A stretch of DNA of 45,216 bases, taken from the NCBI GenBank assembly GCA_003023645.1, contig PXYQ01000002.1:1-45216 (forward strand). Direction: 5' to 3'. Of the stretch, positions 29,206 through 31,681 are shown piece by piece. Position 1 is the first letter of the stretch; the number at the start of each line of letters is the position of its first letter. This DNA is from Candidatus Arcticimaribacter sp. (GTDB lineage Bacteria; Bacteroidota; Bacteroidia; Flavobacteriales; Flavobacteriaceae). The translations under genes were made by a program, and so were the position numbers. The notes under the pieces are model-generated. The model did no database searches and was not told the DNA's origin. It saw nothing but the letters and a program-made list of their open reading frames with translations.

Positions 29206-30147
29206 TTATTTTTTTATAAGACCAAGTTCAATCAGGCGTTGATGTAAAAAAGCTCCGGCAGTAGTATCGTCGTACGCTTTGGGTTGCTTTTCAGAAATGC
29301 AATGCGGCAAACAATTAAGCGGCATTTCTGCAATGGGATGCATAAAAAACGGAATCGAATACCGTGAACTTCCCCAGGCTTCTTTGGGTGGATTGATTAC
29401 TTGATGTAGGGTAGACTTAAGTTTGTTATTGGTTAAACGCGACATCATATCCCCCATGTTAATGATCAATTCATCGGGTTCAGCAATGGCATCAATCCAA
29501 GCGCCATCGTTGGTCATTACTTGTAAGCCCCTTCCTTGTGCACCCATCAATAACGTAATCAGATTGATGTCTCCATGAGCAGCAGCTCGTAGTGCATTTT
29601 CGGGTTCTTGGGTAATGGGTGGATAATGAATTGCACGCAAAATAGAATTCCCATTTGCGATGAAAGAGTCAAAAAAACGCTCTTCTAATTTGAGATGAAT
29701 CGCTATTGCTTGAAGTACATGCTGTGCTGTTTTTTCTAAAAGTTTATAGGTCTCTTTCCCAACGGAGTTGAAAACGGGGAGTTCGTTAACCTTAAGATTC
29801 TCGGGATATAGTGTAGGGCTAGCTTCTTCGTATTGACCGAAATGCCAAAACTCCTTAAGGTCCCCTATTTTTCTGTCTTTAGCGTGTTCTTTCCCAAAGG
29901 AGGTATATCCTCTTTGTCCTCCTCCGCCTTCAACTTCATATTGTTTTTTCTCCTCCAATGTGAGGTCAAAGAAAGCCTTGATTTCTGTATATAAACCTTC
30001 CATAAGTTCAGAAGAAAGAAAGTGTCCCTTTAAGGCTACAAAACCAATTTCTTCAAAAGCAGAGCCTAACTGGGAAACAAATTGCTTTTTATCATTTTGG
30101 TCAGCACTTAAGAAATCATTTAAATCTACTTTAGGAATTTGTTGCAC
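29206..30147 (-). CDS. Isopenicillin N synthase-like 2OG/Fe(II) oxygenase family protein
   Basis: FVSQLGSAFEEIGFVALKGH, RAAAHGDINLITLLMGAQGRGLQVMTNDGAWIDA, LIINMGDMMSRLTNNKLKSTLHQVINP, SRYSIPFFMHP. Confidence 0.9.
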   Translation of the reverse strand: MQQIPKVDLNDFLSADQNDKKQFVSQLGSAFEEIGFVALKGHFLSSELMEGLYTEIKAFFDLTLEEKKQYEVEGGGGQRGYTSFGKEHAKDRKIGDLKEFWHFGQYEEASPTLYPENLKVNELPVFNSVGKETYKLLEKTAQHVLQAIAIHLKLEERFFDSFIANGNSILRAIHYPPITQEPENALRAAAHGDINLITLLMGAQGRGLQVMTNDGAWIDAIAEPDELIINMGDMMSRLTNNKLKSTLHQVINPPKEAWGSSRYSIPFFMHPIAEMPLNCLPHCISEKQPKAYDDTTAGAFLHQRLIELGLIKK

Positions 30148-30200
30148 GTGGATATGTTTAGAATAAAATTACAAATACGGATGAGGTTGTAGCATACTAA

Positions 30201-30226
30201 AAAAGCAGGTCCATCGACCTGCTTTT
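30201..30226 (-). terminator. Strong, symmetrical Rho-independent terminator ending the small minus-strand unit
   Basis: AAAAGCAGGTC-CATC-GACCTGCTTTT, 11-bp stem; U-run on minus strand. Confidence 0.88.
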
Positions 30227-30248: not shown

Positions 30249-30311
30249 TTATAACTGTCCTCTAAAAGGTATCAGTTGTTCGTCTTTCCTCAAATTCTTT
30301 TTATGTAACAT
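30249..30311 (-). CDS. 20-aa small ORF MLHKKNLRKDEQLIPFRGQL with extended Shine-Dalgarno
   Basis: Minus strand AGAAAGGAGGTATCAAATG; ORF ATGTTACATAAAAAG...CAGTTATAA. Confidence 0.5.
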   Translation of the reverse strand: MLHKKNLRKDEQLIPFRGQL

Positions 30312-30316
30312 TTGAT

Positions 30317-30327
30317 ACCTCCTTTCT
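30317..30327 (-). promoter_or_regulatory. Extended Shine-Dalgarno sequence
   Basis: Minus strand AGAAAGGAGGT, 5-6 nt upstream of ATG. Confidence 0.75.
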
Positions 30328-30372
30328 TCATTTAGTTCGACTTTGCTATTGTCATAGCTTAACTACTCATCT

Positions 30373-30400
30373 CAAAGATAGAAAACAGAATGATATCCAA
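30373..30400 (-). promoter_or_regulatory. Flavobacterial-type promoter candidate
   Basis: Minus strand TTG-N17-TATCTTTG, matching TTG-N17-23-TAnnTTTG. Confidence 0.6.
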
Positions 30401-30403
30401 GAA

Positions 30404-31681
30404 CTATTTTACGATCTTTTTAAGTGTCAGCCCTTGAACAAGGATAGTAAATAAAACTACGGCATAAGTAAGAAATAAAATGAGGGATTTTCCTTCTCCT
30501 AGCGATGCAGGTAAGTTTAACGCCAATGCAATACTCAGACCGCCGCGAAGACCACCCCAAGTAATAATAAGTGCCGTTTTCTCTTCAAAAACTTTTTTGA
30601 TTGAAAGGATTTTTATGGGAATTATAACGCCAATACCGCGAGAAATAACCACCAACACAATAACGATTAGCGATAAGAAAATGTAGTTCAATTGGAAGTT
30701 ATGAAAAATGGTTAGAATTTCAAGACCAATAAGAATGAATAAAACGGCATTAAGTGTTTCGTCGAGCAAGTGCCAGAACTTATATACATAAGCCCCCATT
30801 GACGATTCTTCACTGTCCGAAGACGCAATATTTTTATTTAAAAACAAACCAAGAATTACAACTCCAATGGGACCCGAAAGGTGAAAGCGATGCGCTACAA
30901 CCGAAACAATGAGCACCAAAGAAAGGGTGATTAGGACCTCCAACTCTACAAATTCATTTTCAATGTATCGAAGCAACTTGAGTCCTAAATAACCAACCAA
31001 TGCACCGAGTGCTAATCCACCAACAACTTCTGTTACAAACAAAACGCTAATGCTTTGGGCAGTTACCTGCTCTATGCCTTCTGTTTTGATGTTGAGTAAA
31101 GTTAAAAAGATAACCACTCCAATTCCGTCATTAAAAAGAGATTCCCCTGCAATTCGGGTTTCGGTTGCTGGAGATAGATTCATTTTTTTAACCATGGCCA
31201 AAACGGCAATGGGATCTGTCGGAGCTATTAAAGATCCAAACAAAAGACAGTCAATAAGACTAAGCCCTAGACCAGACAACCCAAGAAACGATTGTTGTGT
31301 AAGCCAAAAAGTCCCATATCCTACTGCGAAGGTTGAGAAAAGAACCCCAAAGGTCGCTAGGAACAAGATGGTTACTTTGTCTTTGAGTAATTCTTTAAGG
31401 TTAATGGTTATTGCGCCTGCAAAGAGCAAGAACGGTAGCATTACATTGATGAGCAGTGTGCTAAAGTCAAACCGCTGTGTTAGCGAAGTAACAGCTTCTA
31501 AAAATGAAGGAAATATAAGGCCCGTTATTAAAACAAAAATGGAAAGTATAATTGCCAGAACCATCAATCCAATGGTTTGAGGGAGTTTTAAAACACGTAA
31601 ATTAATGATTGAAAAAACAGAAGCTAATAAAAGTAAAACGGTAGATAATTCTAATACATCCATAAAAATAGTTTTCACCAA
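30404..31681 (-). CDS. Cation:proton antiporter (CPA1/NhaP-like)
   Basis: LLFGSLIAPTDPIAVLAMVKKMNLSPATETRIAGESLFNDGIGVVIF; ITWGGLRGGLSIALALNLP. Confidence 0.93.
   Translation of the reverse strand: MVKTIFMDVLELSTVLLLLASVFSIINLRVLKLPQTIGLMVLAIILSIFVLITGLIFPSFLEAVTSLTQRFDFSTLLINVMLPFLLFAGAITINLKELLKDKVTILFLATFGVLFSTFAVGYGTFWLTQQSFLGLSGLGLSLIDCLLFGSLIAPTDPIAVLAMVKKMNLSPATETRIAGESLFNDGIGVVIFLTLLNIKTEGIEQVTAQSISVLFVTEVVGGLALGALVGYLGLKLLRYIENEFVELEVLITLSLVLIVSVVAHRFHLSGPIGVVILGLFLNKNIASSDSEESSMGAYVYKFWHLLDETLNAVLFILIGLEILTIFHNFQLNYIFLSLIVIVLVVISRGIGVIIPIKILSIKKVFEEKTALIITWGGLRGGLSIALALNLPASLGEGKSLILFLTYAVVLFTILVQGLTLKKIVK

Follow-up and report, generated by a model that had tools for sequence, protein, structure and literature searches.

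A conserved mini-gene with an extended Shine-Dalgarno sequence in marine flavobacteria, a candidate translated regulatory RNA of the rpsU type

The mini-gene and its parts

The window is the whole stretch of DNA that was analysed, 45,216 nucleotides of contig PXYQ01000002.1 (contig C80 of the assembly) from Candidatus Arcticimaribacter (NS5_F; GTDB UBA7428; PMC9122927). A very small gene lies on its minus strand between two genes whose names are given by sequence. An earlier note on this DNA had reported a 20-codon open reading frame (ORF) with an 11-nt extended Shine-Dalgarno sequence (SD) at 30249-30327, and a fresh reading of the minus strand found both in place, with AGAAAGGAGGTATCAAATG followed by MLHKKNLRKDEQLIPFRGQL and a stop. 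The features are, in the direction of transcription:

30404..31681, minus strand: cation/proton antiporter-like protein, the upstream neighbour, given as context only
30373..30400, minus strand: Bacteroidota-type promoter predicted from the sequence, with TTG (30400-30398), a 17-nt spacer and TATCTTTG (30380-30373; TAnnTTTG)
30345..30358, minus strand: 5′ hairpin GCTAT-GACA-ATAGC, fully (100%) paired in sets of 17 and 70 sequences, where compensatory changes occur
30317..30327, minus strand: extended SD AGAAAGGAGGT, an 11-nt complement of the 16S 3′ tail, assessed by duplex energies
30313..30319, minus strand: GGTATCA, which overlaps the SD and pairs with 30268-30274 as the left arm of fold I's inner masking helix
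30249..30311, minus strand: 20-codon ORF MLHKKNLRKDEQLIPFRGQL with its stop, at a GGAGG-to-ATG spacing of 6 nt
30284..30291, minus strand: internal purine element GAGGAAAG in codons 7-10, left arm of fold II by its cognate 3′ pairing
30268..30274, minus strand: TGATACC, late in the ORF, which pairs with 30313-30319 as the right arm of fold I's inner masking helix
30231..30247, minus strand: 16S-tail-like element after the stop, CCTTTCTTTTTCTATC, able to pair with the SD (fold I) or with the internal element (fold II)
30199..30226, minus strand: predicted intrinsic terminator AAAAGCAGGT-CGATGG-ACCTGCTTTT with a T-run, of invariant loop and covarying stem
29206..30147, minus strand: 2OG/Fe(II) oxygenase-like protein, the downstream neighbour, given as context only

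The whole gene is a conserved, stand-alone unit of about 170 nt, in which promoter, 5′ hairpin, SD, AUG, an ORF of 20-22 codons, the 16S-tail-like element and the terminator follow one another. The 16S gene is absent from the genome's own assembly, which is 84% complete, and the tail was therefore taken from five congeners, where 8 of 8 copies end in ...GGAACACCTCCTTTCTAGA. Against this tail the full complementarity claimed earlier is borne out at 11 of 11 nt. The duplex of the window copy has 11 bp and -17.7 kcal/mol; most relatives pair over 12-14 nt at about -21 kcal/mol, and the range across 70 homologues is -17.7 to -22 kcal/mol. The window copy and the 70 homologues all reach the energy typical of rpsU (a 9-13 bp helix below -13 kcal/mol). 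GGAGG stands 5-7 nt before the ATG in 70 of 70 aligned homologues, a placement of the initiation type. One locus outside the alignment, L135 (CALITN010000028.1), has AGG in place of the start ATG and keeps the remaining features. An overlapping upstream frame, ATGAAGAAAGGAGG... (MKKGG), was rejected as unconserved; most relatives read ATGTAG there.

The motif TAnnTTTG lies no more than 50 nt ahead of the 5′ hairpin in 62 of 76 homologues, in most cases at a distance of 18-20 nt, against a chance expectation of 0.06 per sequence. The hairpin itself is centred on TGACAA in the homologues. The terminator stem is 99.9% paired, with 6 of its 10 pairs changed on both sides. Its CGATGG loop is specific to the mini-gene RNA among the predicted terminators of the window and the 80 fetched loci; L134, outside the alignment, has TGATGG instead. 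The sequence motifs thus predict a promoter and an intrinsic terminator of its own, as expected of a stand-alone small RNA gene, and we infer that this promoter is used.

Distribution and the rarity of the SD

By BLASTN the locus is present in its own genome and in 16 of 18 congeners, hence in 17 of 19 Ca. Arcticimaribacter genomes. The two congeners without it (G010 and G013) keep the upstream antiporter gene, which is followed by a different, inverted gene, an arrangement that points to lineage loss or rearrangement. With 2 of 19 congeners lacking it, the gene must be dispensable. A covariance model built from the genus matches 17 of 400 family genomes in 9 of 238 genera, all of them bins of 1.3-2.2 Mb, and the homologues beyond the genus belong to other small-genome marine flavobacteria. 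GTDB representatives scanned with a pattern yielded 80 named loci that could be read, including one chance match (L172), and about 75 named records are taken as homologues; since the pattern itself called for parts of the SD and of the 5′ hairpin, the invariance of these parts in the named-record set is partly by construction. Two MAGs, UBA11891 (L171, L175) and HS5SWF_bin.63 (L129, L179), hold two copies of the RNA each on separate contigs; the copies of UBA11891 are of different peptide types, which suggests a mixed bin.

An order-level search with model R2 scored 73 other genomes at up to 42 bits. These matches were rejected as probably other terminators, and none of the 29 loci fetched from among them combines SD, loop and 5′ hairpin. 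Neither the family-level nor the order-level covariance searches found a true match outside marine clades. Rfam 15, at gathering and E-value thresholds, gave nothing credible for the window copy and four relatives.

A strong SD was described earlier as rare in this genome. The pattern AAAGGAGGTN{2,9}ATG is found at 5 sites in the genome versus 7 in a reversed control, so a single SD is within chance in one genome and conservation has to decide. The mini-ORF and rpsU are two of the five sites; two of the other three were inspected, and one lies within a long ORF and one before a 9-aa ORF. The SD is indeed exceptional and of the rpsU type, but rpsU itself, which lies outside the window, had been overlooked, and its SD in the window's species is slightly stronger (-20.1 versus -17.7 kcal/mol). 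The strong SD of rpsU is kept across the genus, and in most species the mini-gene has the greater complementarity to the tail.

A perfect 12-nt SD, AGAAAGGAGGTGN{2,10}ATG, occurs at 39 sites over 400 family genomes. Thirty of these were inspected and comprise 17 rpsU genes, 6 copies of the mini-gene RNA and 7 unrelated singletons; three of the nine further sites bear the signature GTGTC[TA][TA]ATG of the mini-gene RNA. Judged by these patterns, the mini-gene RNA is the sole recurrent companion of rpsU found among the inspected 12-nt-SD sites of the 400 family genomes. The grounds named earlier for giving up the proposal were a lack of conservation or an abundance of equally strong SDs. Neither ground applies: SD, ORF and spacing are kept in relatives, and the perfect 12-nt SD recurs only at rpsU and here.

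Several other sites were seen in these scans. A 41-aa ORF (MAKDSEGRKYNRIPGYTKKVGGK...) in another family member (L248; G187:C1) has a perfect 12-nt extended SD, a single case. A 217-aa ORF with a 12-nt extended SD (L262; G226:C11) looks by eye like a GIY-YIG nuclease and is possibly phage-related. The sequence AAAGGAGGTCAAAAATG / AAAGGAGGTCAAAAATGACCTCCT recurs in four congeners (L278, L279 (G004:C40, G012:C50), L280, L281) and was rejected as a mimic of SD and ATG; it belongs to a palindromic, terminator-like hairpin, adjoined in two of the four by tRNA-like sequence, and is therefore probably a terminator. Similarly, AAAGGAGGTGTTTTATG in two congeners was rejected, as it sits within an open frame. 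The rpsU gene is a separate locus in every congener, and close to a contig end, at L056 (G014:C2:811677-811787), there is another bS21-like match, which is partial and has a stop.

Reading frame, folds and competing explanations

All 70 homologues keep the frame of the ORF open for 19 codons, versus 5 of 70 and 0 of 70 in the other two frames. The ORF is 20-21 codons long in 66 homologues and 25-26 in four, its stops are TAA (51), TAG (14) and TGA (5), and the gaps within its alignment are multiples of 3. The earlier note had proposed a substitution-ratio check, and its outcome is divided. A dN/dS-like ratio from nearest-pair substitutions is lowest in the ORF frame, 0.68 versus 0.89 and 1.15 elsewhere, but the peptide is only weakly constrained. 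Translation thus appears to be kept while the amino acids may drift; what counts is then more likely the translating as such, or the RNA, than the peptide.

Three alternatives survive best: a genuine micropeptide ranks first, a small RNA that works by way of its loop second, and a simple sponge third. In the first, the 20-22-aa peptide is the product, and a shortage of bS21 turns on its synthesis. The frame that is always open, the kept length and stop, the low ratio and the pattern M[SF]Y...[NHY]LR...QQ.P...L[LF], which recurs in many clades, all speak for such a product. However, codons 4, 9, 10 and 14-20 vary freely, the conserved LR and P codons overlap RNA pairing elements, the stop is lost in 4 of 70 homologues with an extension of 5-6 codons, and four peptides searched against Pfam gave no match. 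A micropeptide mRNA is accordingly possible but rather unlikely.

SgrS/SgrT and RNAIII are dual-function small RNAs that contain an ORF, and the mini-gene RNA could likewise pair with mRNAs or bind a protein via the CGATGG loop or the 5′ hairpin, with the ORF in a minor role. This reading gains from the loop, which is invariant on a covarying stem and absent from the other predicted terminators of these loci. Nevertheless, it leaves the full-tail SD unexplained, and no conserved target was found: rpsU mRNAs have no enriched complement, pairing with rpsU is nothing special beyond generic SD complementarity, and the conserved unpaired parts have no notable complementarity to 16S or rpsU beyond the SD. 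It is considered unlikely. Alternatively, the RNA could be a pure sponge that binds the free 16S tail, with the ORF merely keeping the subunit engaged, and peptide and switching of no relevance. Complementarity to nearly the entire tail, above that of rpsU in most species, and a stand-alone promoter and terminator suit a sponge. It would require high RNA abundance, however, and the kept start codon, open frame and stop would be needless, so that this explanation is held to be improbable.

The folding models give two mutually exclusive conserved folds, one that masks the SD and one that frees it. Fold I, obtained with RNAalifold from 70 sequences, joins the SD to the 3′ element; GGTGTC and the region of the start codon both pair with the late ORF. 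Pairing in this fold reaches 97.3%, with both sides changed in 12 pairs, and falls to about 45% in a control in which the partners are slid. The inner masking helix reaches 97.4% across 70 species. The two folds have sequence in common, and the covariation of one may therefore leak into the other. In fold II codons about 7-14 pair with the stop region and the 3′ element, which reads TCCTTATCTA in relatives or CTCCTTTCTA in the MED-G20-like clade. The cognate pairing of fold II in 12 clade representatives has -11.2 kcal/mol versus -7.9 in shuffles (0 of 5000). The same test on fold I gave 177 of 5000 for SD with 3′ element, 35 of 5000 for the start region and 613 of 5000 for SD with late ORF; the 16S tail dictates the SD side, and the test thus has little power there. 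When species are folded individually, folds I and II are near balance in many. The window's own copy is dominated by fold I, its minimum-energy fold, and fold II is weak in it. Freeing the SD costs 3 kcal/mol on average, which is small against the approximately -21 kcal/mol of tail pairing.

Small-ORF mRNAs whose start site is masked by long-range pairing and which have alternative folds are known from hok and AapA. A type I toxin mRNA of this kind, kept inactive through metastable folds, would agree with the small ORF, the masking of the SD by a distant 3′ element and the alternative folds, yet the peptides in 79 translations judged by reading are polar and variable, not membrane-like, and a toxin is very unlikely.

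A leader peptide in the usual sense had also been suggested. The antiporter gene is the immediate upstream same-strand neighbour in 59 of 80 loci; where it is missing, the mini-gene comes after a riboflavin-synthase-like cluster, and one clade has it elsewhere. The oxygenase gene, next on the same strand in the window, is downstream in 39 of 80 loci, and the others have different genes there, often on the opposite strand. A leader or attenuator of the downstream gene can be practically dismissed, since a conserved terminator intervenes and the RNA is kept while the next gene changes in identity and strand among the 80 loci, without the conserved co-directional gene that attenuation calls for, as befits a stand-alone unit.

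A possible readout of ribosome state, and known systems

The tail of 16S rRNA in Bacteroidota is normally hidden by bS21, bS18 and bS6, and the RNA should therefore engage chiefly 30S subunits whose tail is free. With moderate confidence the mini-gene is read as a regulatory RNA that is translated and whose gate is formed by ribosomes with their anti-SD exposed, those free of bS21; it would join rpsU as the second member of the extended-SD class. The start site would be recognised by base pairing along practically the full 16S 3′ tail, chiefly by subunits that are without bS21 or incompletely assembled, as for rpsU. Fold I would mask SD and AUG, partly by the 16S-tail-like element after the stop. 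In fold II this element would pair with the ORF instead and leave the SD free. A translating ribosome may then melt fold II and release the element, which would mask the SD again and limit re-initiation. Translation and the state of the RNA would outweigh the peptide, and the output would probably be in trans, either by capture of tail-exposed 30S subunits or by the RNA acting via its 5′ hairpin or CGATGG loop. The complete scheme, an RNA that senses ribosome composition, in which exposed-anti-SD 30S opens the SD, reading flips the folds and the output acts in trans, is much more tentative.

If it is true, regulatory RNAs include a class that has the state of the ribosome as its ligand. Exceptionally strong SDs are characteristic of rpsU, with an energy threshold of -13 kcal/mol; loss of bS21 raises the translation of strong-SD reporters; and extended-SD control in Flavobacteriales was suggested to be limited to rpsU (McNutt et al. 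2023, PMC9976891). That limit came from whole-genome screens of genes, and the mini-gene, too short for usual annotation, recurs in abundant ocean bacteria with an SD equal to or stronger than that of rpsU. Should its translation follow bS21, specialised ribosomes would govern more than just the part they lack, and searches for extended SDs would have to cover unannotated mini-ORFs. The conserved alternative folds offer a ready system for testing how an RNA reads out ribosome state.

Among known systems, Flavobacterium sRNAs such as Rfp18 (PMC9723704) resemble the mini-gene RNA as independent small structured transcripts in Flavobacteriaceae, here a predicted one. They differ in that an extended SD is not reported in what that source describes of Rfp18-type sRNAs, and the mini-gene models match truly only in marine clades. 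SgrS/SgrT and RNAIII share the short stand-alone RNA, terminator, structured elements and small ORF, whereas the mini-gene RNA is unrelated to them in sequence (no Rfam match) and has an exceptionally long SD. The metastable mRNAs of hok and AapA (cf. PMC6733600) share the small ORF, long-range masking of the start and alternative folds, but the mini-gene peptide is not hydrophobic or toxin-like. The closest likeness is to rpsU (PMC9976891), with an extended SD covering nearly the whole 16S tail at below -13 kcal/mol in a phylum that hides this tail. Unlike rpsU, the mini-gene encodes no ribosomal protein, its 20-22-aa peptide without a Pfam match being none of the tail-pocket proteins bS21, bS18 or bS6; its GGAGG-AUG spacing is 5-7 nt, compared with about 9 in rpsU, and its SD sits in an RNA of alternative folds.
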